Under the pieces are notes generated by a model. The model had not been told where the DNA came from. It did no database searches and saw only the letters and a list, made by a program, of their open reading frames with translations. Shown here in pieces: positions 27,515-37,141 of a DNA stretch of 64,000 bases. The position numbers and the translations under genes were made by a program. Origin of the DNA: Saccharibacillus brassicae. Lineage in GTDB: Bacteria; Bacillota; Bacilli; Paenibacillales; Paenibacillaceae. The stretch lies in assembly GCF_006542275.1 (NCBI RefSeq), contig NZ_CP041217.1, forward strand, positions 2,279,501 through 2,343,500. The letters run 5' to 3'. Position 1 is the stretch's first letter. Every line of letters starts with the position of its first letter.

Positions 27515-27748
27515 GCTTGTCACGTCCTCTTATTCGAATGATGCGGTGGCCCGCCGGCTGCGCGAAGCGCGTCCGGCGCTGCTCATCCTATCATACATTT
27601 CCCCGGCGCGCCACGAAAATAAACGGGAAGCGCAACTTCGGACGTCGCGGCTGCGTATGCTTTTCCATGCAGAACCCGATCGTCCGCCAGCCCGGCGGCC
27701 GCCTTCTTGGCGGGTCGACCGGGATTCCATTTCAGAGGAGTGAAGTTC

Positions 27749-29677
27749 ATGTCCACGGTTAACGCAAGCATCACCGAAGGCGTGCTGCGCACACGCAAAA
27801 AACTGCGCCAGGATACGCTGATTTCGATATTCGAGGAATTCGACGGGGAACGGATGAGCCTGGATGACGACAAACGGGCCGAGAAGTATCGCAAAATGGC
27901 GCTGAGCCCGTTTTCTTTTTATCGCGGCAGCGCTTACCTGTTTTATTTTGACGTAACACGCCAATATTTCCCGTACCACACGCCCAAAGAGCGCCCGACG
28001 TGGGTGCAGGGCGACCTGCATTTTGAAAACTTCGGCGCTTTCCAGAGCGAGACGGGCCGCATCGTCTACGACGTGAACGATTTCGACGAAGGGTACGTGG
28101 GCTCGTACCTCTACGACGTTGTGCGGATGGCCGTGAGCGTCGTGCTCGTCGGGCGCCAGCTCGGCTACACGCCGACCGAACAGGTCGAAGCCGCGGCGCA
28201 TTATATCCGTTCGTACTATAAGCAAATCGACAAGTTCGCCTGCGGCAAAGACGACCCGGCCGACTTCGTCGTCGATTCCGACTGCGCCAAAGGCCCGGTT
28301 CGCAAGCTGCTGCGCAAACTGGAGAAACGGCAGCAGGGTCATTTTCTGGAAAAAGTAACAGCCCGGATGCAGAGCGGACGCGCGTTCCTCGAAAATGCCG
28401 AGCTGGTCGAACCGGCCGAAGCGGAACGCGCAGAGCTGGAGCGGTCCTGGAGCCTGTACATGGACACGCTGCTCTGCCGCCGTCCCGACGCGGAGCATTA
28501 CCGGATCAAGGACGTCGCCGTGAAGCGCGGTTCCGGCACCGCTTCGATCGGCCTGTCGCGGTTCTACGTGCTGATCGAAGGCGGCTCGGCCGAAGCGACG
28601 GGCGACCGCGATTCCGACGATACGGTGCTCGAAGTCAAGGAAGTTCGCGTGCCGGTGCCCGCCTACTTCATGCCGTATTCCGAATCGTTCTGGAACACGT
28701 TCTCCCATCAGGGCAAGCGGGTCACCGCGACGCAGCAGGCGATGCACCACGAAGCCGATCCCTACCTCGGTTTCCTGACGATGGACGGCCGCCATTTCTA
28801 CGCGCGCGAACGTTCGCCGTACAAGAAGCGCCTGAAGCTCGAAGACCTCAAAACGACCGAAGACATGGAGCGCGTCCTGACGCTGATGGGCCGCCTGACG
28901 GCCAAGATGCACGCCCGCGCCGACTTCGACGTCAGCATGGGCCTCCTGCCCTACCACAGCGAAAAAGAAATCGCCAAAGCGATGGGCGACGACTCCGACG
29001 CGTTCGCCAAACACATCTCGCAGTTCGCCTACGCTTACTCCGACGTCGTGGAGCGCGATTACGCGCTGTTCACGGAGTGGATCGCGCAGCGCTTCCCGGA
29101 GACGCAGGCGGGTGCGGGTGCGGCTGGCAGCGGCGGGAAGGCCGGAGGTGAAGGCCAGGAGGCAGGTGCGGGCGCGGCTGGAAGCGGCGCGGAAGGCGGC
29201 GGTGAGGCCGGAGGCGAAGCGGCGGCAGGTTCGGGCGCGGCTGGAAGCGGCGCGGATGGCGGCGGGGAAGGCGAGGATGCGGCCGGAGGCGAAGGCCAGG
29301 CGGCAGGTGCGGGCGTGGCTGGAAGCGGCGCGGATGGCGGCGGTGAGGCCGGAGGCGGAGCGGCGGCAGGTGCGGGCGTGGCTGGAAGCGGCGCGGAAGG
29401 CGAGGGTGCGGCCGGAGGCGAAGCGGCGGCAGGTGCGGGCCCGGATGGCAACGGCGCGGATGGCGGCGGGGAGGCCGGAAGCGAAGGCCAGGCGGCAGGT
29501 TCGGGCGCGGCTGGAAGCGGCGCGGAAGGCGGCAGTGAGGCCGGAGGCGGAGTGGCGAGCGGCAGCGGCGTGACGGCGGCGGCGGAACGGGAGCCGGCCG
29601 TGGAAGACGGCGTAACGGTCGAGCCGTCGATGGAAGGCGAGACGAAGACCGCGGCCGGAGCTTGCGAAGAGGACTGA
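27749..29677 (+). CDS. DUF2252 protein with long Gly/Ala-rich repetitive tail
   Basis: 642 residues. Residues ~1-450 are a DUF2252 domain, a kinase-like fold of unknown activity. Signature stretches are MALSPFSFYRGSAYLFYFD, TWVQGDLHFENFGAF (the HRD-like loop), VYDVNDFDEGYVGSYLYDVVRMAVSV (the DFD/DFG-like metal site) and TAKMHARAD. From residue ~455 the protein ends in ~170 residues of Gly, Ala, Glu and Ser made of imperfect 21-residue repeats (AGSGADGGGEAGGEAA type), which relatives lack. The ATG at 27749 is chosen for GAGGAG seven bases upstream. The tail is probably disordered. Confidence 0.88.
   Translation: MSTVNASITEGVLRTRKKLRQDTLISIFEEFDGERMSLDDDKRAEKYRKMALSPFSFYRGSAYLFYFDVTRQYFPYHTPKERPTWVQGDLHFENFGAFQSETGRIVYDVNDFDEGYVGSYLYDVVRMAVSVVLVGRQLGYTPTEQVEAAAHYIRSYYKQIDKFACGKDDPADFVVDSDCAKGPVRKLLRKLEKRQQGHFLEKVTARMQSGRAFLENAELVEPAEAERAELERSWSLYMDTLLCRRPDAEHYRIKDVAVKRGSGTASIGLSRFYVLIEGGSAEATGDRDSDDTVLEVKEVRVPVPAYFMPYSESFWNTFSHQGKRVTATQQAMHHEADPYLGFLTMDGRHFYARERSPYKKRLKLEDLKTTEDMERVLTLMGRLTAKMHARADFDVSMGLLPYHSEKEIAKAMGDDSDAFAKHISQFAYAYSDVVERDYALFTEWIAQRFPETQAGAGAAGSGGKAGGEGQEAGAGAAGSGAEGGGEAGGEAAAGSGAAGSGADGGGEGEDAAGGEGQAAGAGVAGSGADGGGEAGGGAAAGAGVAGSGAEGEGAAGGEAAAGAGPDGNGADGGGEAGSEGQAAGSGAAGSGAEGGSEAGGGVASGSGVTAAAEREPAVEDGVTVEPSMEGETKTAAGACEED
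29110..29580 (+). repeat. Coding minisatellite of ~63-bp units in the DUF2252 gene
   Basis: Imperfect tandem units of about 63 bases (GGTGCGGGCGCGGCTGGAAG followed by CGGCGCGGATGGCGGCGGTG...) keep the reading frame and encode the Gly/Ala/Glu tail. Adjacent units are nearly identical, so copy number should vary between strains. Confidence 0.8.
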
Positions 29678-32388: not shown

Positions 32389-32721
32389 GCGTGTTCCTCC
32401 CTGGTCTCGGATGTGTATCTTCTAGACTACCCTTTATACGCGATCCAGAAAAGAAAGATGCGAAAAAAAGACGCGTCGACGGGGCGGCGGAGCGCAGCGT
32501 GTACGCAGAGCCGGCCGTAGGTCCGCAGCGGAACGCGGGAGAACGGCGAACCCAGTCCGCCGGGCGGCGGGCGGACCTTCAGGCCGCCCGGCAGCCGGGC
32601 CTGCGCGGCGCCGGCGCAGACGGCCGGGCCAAGCGGCGGGCCGCTCGCCGCCCGGGAACGGCCAGCCGCCCAGCGGCGCGGCGCCGGGCGGCCGAGGGCC
32701 GCTGCGGCCGCCCCGCTCCGC
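32389..32721. other. Very GC-rich gap without a recognisable gene
   Basis: 333 bases of strongly G/C-biased sequence (many CGGCCGGG and GCCGCCC runs) between EcsC and the sigma-factor gene. Long open frames exist only because stop codons are rare in such composition; none has a ribosome site or family match. Confidence 0.5.
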
Positions 32722-34287
32722 TCAATCCGCGGCCGGCACCACCTGCCGCGCGCGGACGTCCCAGCGCGGCGAAGCTTCGCCGGCGAGGCGCAGCCCGCCG
32801 GCCCAGGCGGGAGAGACCGGCCCAGGCGCGGCCGTCTCTCCCGCAAGGATGCGCCGTCCGAGTTCCGACGGCGCGAAGGTCCGGTTCCCGAATTCCGGCG
32901 CGAAGAAGCCGTATTTCGGGAACGCTCCCGATCCGCCGGCAACGAGCAGCGGATCAGGGCCGGCGGTCATCCGCTCCAGATGCCGCCAGAATTCCAGGTC
33001 GCCCAGGCCGAGGGCGACCAGCCGGTCCGCCGAGCGCTTGAACAGCTCGGCGGGGGTAGAGGCGCCGGCGGCCGCTTCTTCGAGCGCGGTCCGCTCGATG
33101 ACGCCGAGACCGTCCGCGGTCGACGGCAGCCGCGACAGATGCGCCTCGAACGCGGCGCGCGCGAACGGCAGCGCCGCGGTGTCCGATTCGAGGAAGCGGA
33201 CATGGTCTTCGGGATTCGGCGAGCTGTAGGCCGCCCACAGCCGCTCCGCGAGCGCGTACTGCTCGGGCCCGACCGGCTGCCACGTGCCGGACAGCGTCTT
33301 GAGCTGGTCGGCACGGAGCTGGCCGAGACCGTGAAAAATCCCGATGCCCGGGAAGGCGCCGACGCAGAGCAGGCTGATCCGCGCGCTGCCCGTTTGCATG
33401 CGGCCGATCCGGTTCAGCACCAGCGCCAGCATCGTCTGGTCGAACAGGTCGTGCTCGAACCACAGCACGACTTCCTCGTACTGCTGCAGTTCCCGCAGTT
33501 TGCGTTCCTGCTCCGCGCAGCCGCCGAGCAGCGTCTGCCGGGGAATGCCCAGCTCCCGCTCCAAATGTTCCGCCCGCGCGTAACGCGCCGACGCTTGTTC
33601 CATATCGGGAAAGACCGGTCCGAACGGATACAGTTCCCGCCAGACGAGCACGTCCCCTTCGATACCCGCTTCGCGTATCCGCTCGGCCGTATGGTCTCCG
33701 TTTACAAGGTGCAGCATGCTTTTTCCTCCTTCGTACAGATCGTGGAACGCGGCGGAGAAGTCCGAGACGTGCAGCGCCGACCGGAGCCGGGCGCGGGCGT
33801 CGAACAGCCTTTTTTTGAGTGCCGATTCCGATACGCCCAAAAAAGCCGAGATGTCCCGAATCCGGTAGCCTTCGAAATAAAACAGGCGCACCGCGAGCCG
33901 CTGGCTGCCCGGCAGTTGTTCCACCGAATCGTACAGCGCCCGCCGCTGCTCTCTGCGCTGCGCGATCTGTTCCGTATTCGCCGCTTCGTCGGCGAACGCC
34001 GCCGCCGTCTCTTCGATCGGCAGCGTCGGCACCGCTTTGCGCCGGATCATCCGGAAAGCGCGGCGCCTGACGATCGTGCGCAGCCAGCCGGGGAACGCTT
34101 CCGGGCGTTCCAGCTCCCGAATTCCGGCGAACGCTTCCGCGAATGCCTCCTGCACGGCGTCTTCCGCAGCGTGCGCGTCGCCGAGTTTTTCGTAGGCGGC
34201 GGCATAGGCCATTTTACCGAACTGCCGAAACAGCCGCTCGTACGCTTCGGGATCTCCCGCCTGCGCTTTTTTCACCCAATCTTCCAT
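32722..34287 (-). CDS. ECF sigma factor fused to a DUF1835 domain
   Basis: 521 residues. Residues ~1-165 are an ECF sigma factor: region 2 with AYERLFRQFGKMAYAAAYEKLGDAHAAEDAVQEAFAEAFAGI, region 4 with LPGSQRLAVRLFYFEGYRIRDISAFLGVSESALKKRLFDARARLRSAL. From residue 191 it is a DUF1835-type protein (MLHLVNGDHTAERIREAGIEGDVLVWRELYPFGPVFPD, then helical sequence with VLWFEHDLFDQTML). The junction carries a perfect ribosome site before in-frame Met191. I chose the ATG at 34287 because an ECF-type promoter and GGAGGAGG lie just upstream. No anti-sigma gene is adjacent, so the DUF1835 part may supply control (inference). Confidence 0.85.
   Translation of the reverse strand: MEDWVKKAQAGDPEAYERLFRQFGKMAYAAAYEKLGDAHAAEDAVQEAFAEAFAGIRELERPEAFPGWLRTIVRRRAFRMIRRKAVPTLPIEETAAAFADEAANTEQIAQRREQRRALYDSVEQLPGSQRLAVRLFYFEGYRIRDISAFLGVSESALKKRLFDARARLRSALHVSDFSAAFHDLYEGGKSMLHLVNGDHTAERIREAGIEGDVLVWRELYPFGPVFPDMEQASARYARAEHLERELGIPRQTLLGGCAEQERKLRELQQYEEVVLWFEHDLFDQTMLALVLNRIGRMQTGSARISLLCVGAFPGIGIFHGLGQLRADQLKTLSGTWQPVGPEQYALAERLWAAYSSPNPEDHVRFLESDTAALPFARAAFEAHLSRLPSTADGLGVIERTALEEAAAGASTPAELFKRSADRLVALGLGDLEFWRHLERMTAGPDPLLVAGGSGAFPKYGFFAPEFGNRTFAPSELGRRILAGETAAPGPVSPAWAGGLRLAGEASPRWDVRARQVVPAAD
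33715..33731 (-). promoter_or_regulatory. Internal ribosome site and start inside the sigma-DUF1835 gene
   Basis: AAGGAGG (33731-33725), seven bases, ATG (33717-33715), in frame with the sigma factor. It falls exactly where the DUF1835 homology begins, so a separate ~330-residue DUF1835 product is expected in addition to, or instead of, the fusion. Confidence 0.7.
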
Positions 34288-34319
34288 CGTCGTTCTTGGC
34301 CTCCTCCGCTCGTTCACCC

Positions 34320-34350
34320 TATTAGTGCCGCGTGGCGCGGCTTTGGTTAC
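34320..34350 (-). promoter_or_regulatory. Candidate autoregulatory ECF promoter of the sigma-factor gene
   Basis: Minus strand GTAACC (34350-34345), 17-base spacer, CACTAATA (34327-34320), 33 bases before the chosen ATG. GTAACC with CNCTAATA is a pattern I know from promoters in front of ECF sigma genes in related bacilli. Confidence 0.45.
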
Positions 34351-34474
34351 TTTTTCGCCCTTTATTTCCATGAGGATATTTTTCTAATCTTTCTTTTTTT
34401 CGTACCGATGAAGAGAGAGATAGACTATGATAACCATAGAGCTAAAGAACTATATAAAAAAGAGGGAACCCTTC

Positions 34475-37141
34475 ATGCGCATTTCCGTCAAACCTGCTGC
34501 CGCCCTTTTATTCGTCCTATTGTTTACGCTTGGGTATTACGCCTGGATCGCGATCTGGACCGACAACGACAACGTTGCGACGTGGGGAGGCAATCTCCTG
34601 TCCGTAGCCGGAAGCCTTACGGCCGCTTTCTGGCTGGCCGGCGCCGCCCGGCGAACGCTCGGAGAGAAACGAACGTTCTGGACGCTGCTGTCGATCGGCT
34701 GCTTCAGCTATTTTATCGCCGAATTGATCTGGCTGTACGAAGAGAAATTTTTGCGAATCGATCCCCCTTCCCCGGGCTGGACCGACTTCTTTTATATTCT
34801 TCAGGTCGTCTGCTACCTCGCCGCGTTCATCTATCCGTTTATTCGGCTCAAAAAAAGCTACGGCGCGTTCAAGCTGGTGTTCGACATCCTGATCGTCATG
34901 ACCGTCGCCGCCACGTTCAGCTGGCATTACCTGATCGGGCCGATTCTGCGCGAAGGCAAGCTGTCGACGCTGACGATGGTCGTCAACCTGTCTTATCCGA
35001 TCACCGATCTGGCGCTGCTGTTCGGCGCGATGAGCCTGTATTGGGGCGCGCGCCGCATTTTCCCCGGACGCCTGATCGTGTTTATCTTCGCCGGCCTCGT
35101 GACCCAGGCGTTCGTCGATTCGATCTATCTGTACCTGCTGTCCGCCGAATCGTACGACTCCGGCAGCTTCGTCGATCCGTTCTTCATGCTCAGCCTGCTG
35201 CTGGTCGGCTACGCCGGATATATCCAGCAGCCCGAAACGCAGACCGAATCGGTCCGGGACGTGCCGGAGGCGGGCGTCGAACGGCTCGACATCCCGCGGA
35301 TCGTGCTGCCTTACCTGAACGTGATGATCCTGTTCTTCTTCATGATCTCGGGCTCCGCCGGCATCGATGCTTTTACGATCGGAACGGGCGTGTCGATCCT
35401 GCTCGTGATCGTGCGGCAGCTGCTGATCATTCTGGAGAATCACCAACTGCTGCTCAGCGTGTACCGCAAGACGGAACAGCTCGAATTGAGCGAGCAGCGC
35501 TACAAATCGATGTTCGAATACCATCCGGACGCCGTCTATTCGCTCGATTCGAACGGCAAGTTCGACAGCGCGAACGCGGCTTCGGCGGATCTGCTGGACT
35601 GCGCGCCGGAGCAGCTGATCGGCAGGTCCCATACCGAGTTCGTGCATGAGCCGATCAGCGGCCTGGCCGATTATATGGGCGCCGCCAAGTCCGGGCTGTC
35701 GGAACGTTACGAAGGCCAAATCCGCAGCCTCAGCGGCCGGATCAGCATCGTCAGCGTGACGCATATCCCGATTCGCGTGCGCGACCGCGTCGTGGGCATT
35801 TTCGGTATCGGCCGCGACATTACGGAGAACAAACGCAATGAGGAACAGATTCGTTATCTGGCTTACCATGACGCGCTGACGGGCCTGCCCAACCGCGCGT
35901 CGTTCGATGCCGAACTCAAAGAGACGATCGAGGAAGCGCGCGTGTCGGGCGAGACGTTCGCCGTCGTGTTCATCGACCTCGACCGCTTCAAAAACGTGAA
36001 CGACACGCTCGGCCACGACGTAGGCGACCGGCTGCTGATCTCCGTGGCGGAACGGCTGCGGCTCTGCATCGGCGAAGCGGACACGGTCGCGCGCCAGGGC
36101 GGCGACGAGTTCACGCTGATCCTGCGCGGCGTCGACGACCGGGAAGGCGTCCGGGCGGCCGCCCAACGCATTCTGGAAGCGCTCCGGCCTCCGCACGATC
36201 TGGAAGAGCAGGAGATCGTCGCGCTGCCGAGCATCGGCCTGTCGGTGTATCCGATCGACGACGACACCCCGGTCGGCCTGATGAAAAAGGCGGATATCGC
36301 CCTGTACCAGGTCAAATACGGCGGCCGCGGCCATCACCGGATGTACTGCGAGACCGATCCCGGCGTGTCGCGCAAGTTCATGTTGGAAAAAGATCTGGGC
36401 CTTGCGCTCGACGCCGAGCAGTTCTTCCTGCATTACCAGCCGCAGATCGATTCCGCTTCCGGACAGTTAAAAGGGGTCGAAGCGCTGATCCGCTGGAACC
36501 ATCCTCAGCTGGGGCTCGTCTCGCCGGTCGAATTCATTCCGATCGCGGAAGAAAGCGGGCATATTCTGGCAATCGGCGATTGGGTGCTGAACGAGGCGTG
36601 CCGGCAGGCGAAGCAGTGGAGCGACGCCGGCAGGCCGATCAAGGTAGGCGTCAACTTGTCGCCCCGGCAGCTGCACCGGCCGGATATCGTCGAACAGATC
36701 GAAAGCGTGCTGAACGAGGTAGGCCTTCGCCCGGATCTGCTCGATCTCGAAATTACCGAATCGGCGGCGCTGGAGAAGCCGGAACTCGTACTGGCCCGGT
36801 TAAAAGCGCTCAAGCAGCTTGGCCTGACGCTCTCGATCGACGACTTCGGCACGGGCTACTCGTCCCTGTCTTATCTGGAGACGTTCCCGATCGACAAGCT
36901 CAAGATCGCCCGGCAGTTCACGAGCAAGCTGGAGAACCGCCAGGTCAACCGGAAGATCGTCTCGCACATTATCGATCTCGCCCGGACGCTGGACATGAGC
37001 GTCATCGCCGAAGGCGTCGAAAGCGAGAACCAGGCCGAGATTCTGCGTACGATCGAATGCGTCGAGATGCAGGGCTTCCTGTTCGGCCGGCCGGTGCCGC
37101 CCGAAGACATCTGGACGATGCTGCACGCCGTACCGAAGTGA
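34475..37141 (+). CDS. Membrane GGDEF-EAL protein with PAS domain
   Basis: 888 residues. About nine hydrophobic helices fill residues ~5-320 (a multi-spanning sensor). A PAS domain follows at ~345-450 (RYKSMFEYHPDAVYSLDSNGKF), then GGDEF with an intact GGDEF at 542-546 (RQGGDEFTLIL). The EAL domain has EAL at 669-671 and downstream LEITES, DDFGTGYSSLSYL and VIAEGVE motifs. Both catalytic sites look complete, so it could make or hydrolyse c-di-GMP depending on signal. The ATG at 34475 is preceded by AGAGGGAACCC; an in-frame ATG 48 bases earlier has no site. It is divergent from the sigma gene. Confidence 0.93.
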   Translation: MRISVKPAAALLFVLLFTLGYYAWIAIWTDNDNVATWGGNLLSVAGSLTAAFWLAGAARRTLGEKRTFWTLLSIGCFSYFIAELIWLYEEKFLRIDPPSPGWTDFFYILQVVCYLAAFIYPFIRLKKSYGAFKLVFDILIVMTVAATFSWHYLIGPILREGKLSTLTMVVNLSYPITDLALLFGAMSLYWGARRIFPGRLIVFIFAGLVTQAFVDSIYLYLLSAESYDSGSFVDPFFMLSLLLVGYAGYIQQPETQTESVRDVPEAGVERLDIPRIVLPYLNVMILFFFMISGSAGIDAFTIGTGVSILLVIVRQLLIILENHQLLLSVYRKTEQLELSEQRYKSMFEYHPDAVYSLDSNGKFDSANAASADLLDCAPEQLIGRSHTEFVHEPISGLADYMGAAKSGLSERYEGQIRSLSGRISIVSVTHIPIRVRDRVVGIFGIGRDITENKRNEEQIRYLAYHDALTGLPNRASFDAELKETIEEARVSGETFAVVFIDLDRFKNVNDTLGHDVGDRLLISVAERLRLCIGEADTVARQGGDEFTLILRGVDDREGVRAAAQRILEALRPPHDLEEQEIVALPSIGLSVYPIDDDTPVGLMKKADIALYQVKYGGRGHHRMYCETDPGVSRKFMLEKDLGLALDAEQFFLHYQPQIDSASGQLKGVEALIRWNHPQLGLVSPVEFIPIAEESGHILAIGDWVLNEACRQAKQWSDAGRPIKVGVNLSPRQLHRPDIVEQIESVLNEVGLRPDLLDLEITESAALEKPELVLARLKALKQLGLTLSIDDFGTGYSSLSYLETFPIDKLKIARQFTSKLENRQVNRKIVSHIIDLARTLDMSVIAEGVESENQAEILRTIECVEMQGFLFGRPVPPEDIWTMLHAVPK

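Follow-up and report, generated by a model that had tools for sequence, protein, structure and literature searches.

A predicted nested gene in an ECF sigma factor-DUF1835 fusion of Saccharibacillus brassicae and its topoisomerase-like model

The window analyzed here is a 64,000-nucleotide stretch of the Saccharibacillus brassicae contig NZ_CP041217.1 (positions 2,279,501 to 2,343,500), and the features of the locus are listed in Table 1. The frame is open from the ATG at 34287 to the stop codon at 32722 without a break, and Pfam domains are found on both halves; the in-frame joining of an ECF sigma factor to a DUF1835 protein, as described in the first-pass annotation, therefore holds, with neither a stop codon nor a frameshift between the domains. 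The sigma half belongs to the ECF class, as it contains regions 2 and 4 only, without regions 1 or 3; PF04542 and PF08281 both score above their cut-offs, and TIGR02937 matches with an E value of 9.2e-23. The structural model aligns with region 2 of E. coli sigmaE (Z-score = 14.3) and also fits the SigW structure. The DUF1835 match covers residues 192 to 297 (E = 1.9e-6; 28.4 bits against a gathering cut-off of 21.1 bits), and PF08874 is matched by all 84 aligned homologues at E values of up to 1. A longer frame, reaching up to an ATG at 34371, crosses the ECF-like promoter; since this upstream ATG precedes the promoter, 34287 is the most likely start of the full-length product. The spacer between GGAGGAGG and this ATG is 12 nucleotides, which is longer than the 7 nucleotides at the internal start.

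Table 1. Coordinates of the features of the fusion locus within the window
Feature	Position	Strand	Basis or remark
ECF-type promoter GTAACC-N15-GGCACTA	34323..34350	minus	Sole exact match in the genome; equivalents before 127 of 133 distinct fused genes
Shine-Dalgarno sequence GGAGGAGG of the full-length product	34300..34307	minus	Sequence; homologous Shine-Dalgarno and start in relatives
Sigma-DUF1835 fusion gene, 521 aa	32722..34287 (stop included)	minus	Uninterrupted frame and Pfam domains
Sigma-70 region 2	34033..34233	minus	PF04542, residues 19-85, E = 3.7e-13; model match to E. coli sigmaE
Sigma-70 region 4	33784..33942	minus	PF08281, residues 116-168, E = 1.6e-11
Internal Shine-Dalgarno sequence AAGGAGG	33725..33731	minus	7 nt before the internal ATG; Gly187 codon constraint
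Internal start codon ATG, residue 191	33715..33717	minus	Start codon in all 133 distinct fused genes
Nested DUF1835 gene, 331 aa, putative separate product	32722..33717	minus	PF08874; start residue shared with solo homologues
TOPRIM-like half (VNGD, WFEHDLFD, and GLGQLxxxQL motifs)	33217..33717	minus	Model match to GyrB TOPRIM; GyrB profile match
GyrA-like winged-helix half	32839..33171	minus	Whole-model alignment to gyrase/topo IV cores; weak GyrA profile match

The ECF core carries a folded C-terminal extension and, as had also been stated, no anti-sigma gene adjoins it; according to Pfam, the neighbors encode PAS-GGDEF-EAL, EcsC, and Zn peptidase proteins. The PAS-GGDEF-EAL gene (34427-37141, plus strand) is divergent, carries DUF4084 at its N-terminus, and is retained in other Saccharibacillus. 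No conserved operon partners were found in Paenibacillaceae outside Saccharibacillus. The segment between the stop codon of the fusion gene and the EcsC gene (32500-32720) has a GC content of ~83%, against roughly 60 to 68% on the EcsC side. Elsewhere in the window, 27707-29677 (plus strand) encodes a DUF2252 protein with a long, repeat-built low-complexity tail of Gly, Ala, and Glu. An anti-phage defense role was rejected, as PADLOC and PHROG gave no family match.

The intact fusion occurs in 10 of the 16 Saccharibacillus genomes, in which the relatives are uninterrupted and 64 to 76% identical; the other six lack the gene and hold only distant ECF paralogues at ~30% identity. DUF1835 was matched in 253 of 394 Paenibacillaceae genomes, and among the matches listed, most lie in frames of more than 500 codons and about 30 lie in short frames. 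All 80 named loci (Saccharibacillus, Paenibacillus, and Gorillibacterium) are fused. Outside the family, a sample of 398 Bacilli genomes contained the fusion in only two genomes, one from the same order and one other with a frameshift in the sigma part. Together with those of the named genomes, a set of 85 genes yielded 133 distinct fused genes, with identity down to about 45%. The fusion is widespread in Paenibacillaceae and is not a chance joining; it is present in most DUF1835-bearing members of the family, which do not always encode two separate genes.

The internal ATG opens the sequence MLHLVNGD, one residue ahead of the DUF1835 match, and the arrangement of AAGGAGG, 7 nucleotides, and an in-frame ATG at the domain boundary is as first reported. 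The same frame, Shine-Dalgarno sequence, and start codon are present in all 10 Saccharibacillus genomes bearing the gene. At the boundary, the 85 fused genes have ATG (71 genes), GTG (9 genes), or TTG (5 genes), and the 133 distinct genes have ATG (111), GTG (13), or TTG (9) and no other codon; i.e., Val is encoded there solely by GTG and Leu solely by TTG, while elsewhere in the genes other codons dominate. The Shine-Dalgarno sequence is formed by a Gly codon, which is GGA in 70 and GGG in 14 of the 85 genes, with one Arg, and GGA in 112 and GGG in 19 of the 133 genes, with two Arg, whereas GGC and GGT account for 46% of the Gly codons gene-wide in the 85 genes. These counts are drawn from related sequences and overstate independence, but a clustered subset agrees with them: all 20 representatives that are less than 65% identical have GGA or GGG, and all 20 have a start codon. 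The GGAGG sequence is found at the junction in 71 of the 85 genes, compared with 30 expected from back-translation with the codons of each gene. In a scan of conserved codons for synonymous constraint in the 85 genes, Gly187 (numbered 185 in the trimmed alignment) ranks first of 224, and this rank is to be read in preference to the z values, which ignore relatedness. In L102, EGG has become GGE in the protein, and GGAGG is retained but shifted; the exceptions are L066, with a weakened Shine-Dalgarno sequence (GAGCGAGG), and L395, with AAGGGG. RNA folding at the internal start is unremarkable (z = 0.6), with no sign of an occluding switch. The conservation of the internal Shine-Dalgarno sequence and start codon at the codon level indicates that the internal start is under nucleotide-level selection, as in a gene within a gene. 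Along with the sigma-deleted lineages that keep DUF1835, this conservation strongly supports a separate DUF1835 product and, with it, the two products from one gene that the first-pass annotation had suggested.

ECF sigma factors use promoters with an AAC-type -35 element, usually that of their own gene. The motif GTAACC-N15-GGCACTT lies ahead of 127 of the 133 distinct fused genes, mostly at a narrow range of distances (reversed control, 0), and the Saccharibacillus version is GGCACTA or similar. With the strict motif, 65 matches were obtained from 295 family genomes, 60 of which contain at least one (reversed control, 0); nearly all of the matches that could be placed belong to the fusion gene, to decayed copies of it (L241 and L242), or to a solo descendant. 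In the S. brassicae genome, the pattern with the 15-nucleotide spacer is exact only at the gene itself, and matches with one or two mismatches are fewer than those in the reversed control; a pattern with a 16-nucleotide spacer misses the promoter, the real spacer being 15 nucleotides. No sigma-A-like promoter was found upstream of the fusion gene. Because the motif precedes nearly every fused gene and almost nothing else, the main transcriptional target of the sigma factor is most likely its own gene, although weaker promoter sites could have escaped the scan; the autoregulation suggested earlier is thus well supported by these comparisons. A second copy of the promoter was observed in five genomes from a single genus of Paenibacillaceae (L236-L240), at about position 2000 on the strand of the site; it is flanked by a D-Ala-D-Ala carboxypeptidase gene and by the 3' end of an oligopeptide-binding gene, into which it reads antisense. 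This second site is kept while its flanks diverge, and an antisense RNA is possible; the regulon may therefore exceed one gene.

Solo DUF1835 genes (n = 43; 33 in-group and 10 from other Bacilli families) begin at the same residue as the internal start, mostly with a Shine-Dalgarno sequence. In the DUF1835 tree, the in-group solo genes are scattered among the fused ones, corresponding to 12 to 19 changes, and fused genes lie at the in-group base of this quick tree, the deep branches of which are weakly supported and the root of which was set by outgroup and midpoint. The solo gene of L097 is accompanied by a sigma remnant, DARQKRNGKLPAGEFVTVLNHLYEGGQS (E = 4e-5), that of L199 by the tail of sigma in a different frame (E = 4e-10), and an LYEGG-like end persists in those of L087, L088, L091, L095, and L200; in L078, an ECF promoter lies immediately ahead of the internal Shine-Dalgarno sequence. 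The histories of the sigma and DUF1835 parts are correlated (r = 0.87), and none of 500 permutations gave a value as high. The scattered solo genes, the sigma remnants, and the L078 promoter point to a likely order in which a separate DUF1835 gene was followed by one old fusion and then by repeated loss of the sigma half, with DUF1835 still used from its own start. We infer gain or loss on the tree itself, while the sigma remnants are direct evidence. Multiple independent fusions are unlikely in view of the correlated histories, the sigma remnants in solo genes, and the fused genes at the in-group base. Since solo genes persist after sigma loss and also occur in other Bacilli families, DUF1835 is more than a dedicated anti-sigma domain.

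Two further arrangements were observed. L241 and L242 retain the promoter and the first sigma codons, followed by an internal deletion up to the last part of DUF1835, and are decayed fusion copies. In family f31 of Bacilli (L318-L320, L322, and L323), the solo DUF1835 gene belongs to a conserved cluster; downstream of it are a gene without a Pfam match, a class II fumarase/aspartase-type lyase gene, and Spo0M genes, and a class-III aminotransferase gene is on the opposite strand.

The AlphaFold2 model of DUF1835, built from 84 homologues, has a pLDDT of 95.6. When this predicted model was compared with solved structures, each of the best 20 Foldseek hits was the core of a type IIA topoisomerase (E = 1.6e-7 to 2.8e-4), and the 50 entries that VIA-align 2 listed were likewise all type IIA topoisomerases (best Z-score = 12.5, 286 residues, 4.2 Å). 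Residues 1 to 167 of the model align with the GyrB TOPRIM domain (Z-score = 11.0, 139 residues, 2.8 Å), and the full-length model gives the same topoisomerase-core answer. In profile comparisons, DUF1835 matches GyrB around GLGQLxxxQL/GLGEMxxxQLW, and its C-terminal half matches GyrA around LPSxxNGLGIVE/LPDVRDGLKPVH; the scores exceed those of all 60 column shuffles and of the reversed profile each time and are weak alone (single-comparison E values of 0.002-0.014). DUF1835 is thus predicted to fold like the cleavage core of type IIA topoisomerases, i.e., as a TOPRIM domain with a winged helix. The TOPRIM catalytic Glu corresponds to Asn (NGD for EGD) in 83 of the 84 homologues aligned by motif, and the acidic ExD..D cluster is largely kept among the 84. 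The RYTE-equivalent position, as placed by motif, is occupied by Leu, Pro, Ile, Val, Met, or Ala and never by Tyr, and no Tyr is conserved after Y164. An ATPase (GHKL) domain is absent from the protein according to Pfam, and no such partner is conserved among the neighbors. These features may suggest a loss of catalysis. A shared fold does not prove function. A sequence search gave no solved structure of a DUF1835 relative, and no link between DUF1835 and TOPRIM was found in the literature searched.

We consider it probable (roughly 0.7) that the locus is a self-transcribing gene with a nested gene, in which DUF1835 is a topoisomerase-like core that probably serves as an effector and, in the fusion, is likely a sensor or brake. 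The ECF sigma half would steer RNA polymerase mainly to the promoter of its own gene, GTAACC-N15-GGCACTT. The resulting mRNA would carry two ribosome-binding sites for the same frame, the first giving the sigma-DUF1835 fusion and the second, at the domain boundary, giving DUF1835 alone. As a shrunken type IIA topoisomerase-like core (TOPRIM and winged helix) from which key catalytic residues appear to have been lost, DUF1835 would probably bind nucleic acid, either DNA or RNA, and not cut it. The DUF1835 module would probably be the effector, with its dose set by the sigma factor, and within the fusion it would likely respond to a signal or brake the sigma half in place of the missing anti-sigma factor. 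Type IIA topoisomerase cores are dimers, and braking may proceed via pairing of fused with free DUF1835 copies. It is a tentative and rather doubtful extension of this scheme that DNA topology, or some other nucleic-acid signal, governs sigma activity through the fused topoisomerase core, which would be catalytically dead, while the internal product serves as dimer partner; if true, a single gene would act as sensor, effector, and transcription switch.

Other explanations share some of the same evidence. DUF1835 might be a dedicated built-in anti-sigma domain, with the internal product as extra anti-sigma that tunes the ratio; there is no adjacent anti-sigma gene, and positive autoregulation would presumably need a brake. 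However, in many lineages DUF1835 has persisted after loss of the sigma half, and other Bacilli families have DUF1835 without a sigma half, which suggests another job, and no anti-sigma family is among the Pfam matches of DUF1835; we therefore regard this explanation as unlikely. We find it quite improbable that the internal Shine-Dalgarno sequence and start are left over from an ancestral gene for DUF1835 alone, kept as an EGGxxM protein linker with only the fusion being made. The solo genes of other Bacilli families do have both elements at the same place, so that the fusion probably inherited them, and EGG and M are conserved as amino acids too; protein constraint nevertheless leaves unexplained the purine-only third positions of the Gly codon and the restriction of substitutes for ATG to GTG and TTG, and the shifted GGAGG of L102 and the top rank of the Gly codon among 224 also stand against it.

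The sigma half could also be a mere targeting arm that brings DUF1835 to transcription complexes, where it would act on DNA at or near active promoters without any effect on sigma. The topoisomerase-like predicted fold would suit such a role, and so would the finding that the own promoter makes up nearly all of the strong sites, but target loci are not known, and a separate DUF1835 product would need no sigma arm; this explanation seems highly improbable. For the self-transcribing gene with a nested gene, several consequences follow. DUF1835, a domain of unknown function, gains a testable structural identity, and the regulon is seemingly so small (the own gene) that a single gene and a single reporter would suffice to rebuild the circuit. 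The locus also indicates that a fused effector can remain separately expressible by retaining its former start site throughout a bacterial family.

C-terminal extensions of ECF factors are already known (PMC8999054), and the present protein resembles such factors in having an ECF core with an extension, no separate anti-sigma gene, and likely autoregulation. On the other hand, its extension is about 330 residues long with a topoisomerase-like predicted fold and is not of the SnoaL, TPR, Cys-rich, or ZAS type; its internal start is selected, and the DUF1835 extension is found as a stand-alone protein as well. That review does not mention DUF1835, which is named in only one paper of the literature searched. 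The likeness to the type IIA core (GyrB TOPRIM and GyrA winged helix; topo IV and topo II) lies in the domain order, in the predicted fold over about 290 residues, and in the resemblance of GLGQLxxxQL to GLGEMxxxQLWETTM and of LPSxxNGLGIVE to LPDVRDGLKPVH, whereas DUF1835 is far shorter, lacks an ATPase domain, has Asn in place of the TOPRIM Glu, and has no Tyr where sequence places the RYTE equivalent. The DUF1835 (PF08874) genes that stand alone in other Bacilli share the domain, the start residue, and, in most cases, the Shine-Dalgarno sequence with the fusion gene but have neither the sigma half nor the ECF promoter.

Genes within genes that arise by internal in-frame translation are known from RpnL/RpnS (PMC10327210), Cas8-Cas11b (PMC11899642), and two-product phage endolysins (PMC9430671), and their internal products often join or inhibit the full-length protein. 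As in those systems, the C-terminal part would be made from an internal start, here predicted from sequence alone; the host protein is a sigma factor, unlike in those systems, and no such report was found in the literature searched. Within that literature, novelty appears to lie in the combination, in what the extension is, and in how deeply the internal start is conserved, and this would be the first sigma factor known with a topoisomerase-like module and a nested gene.
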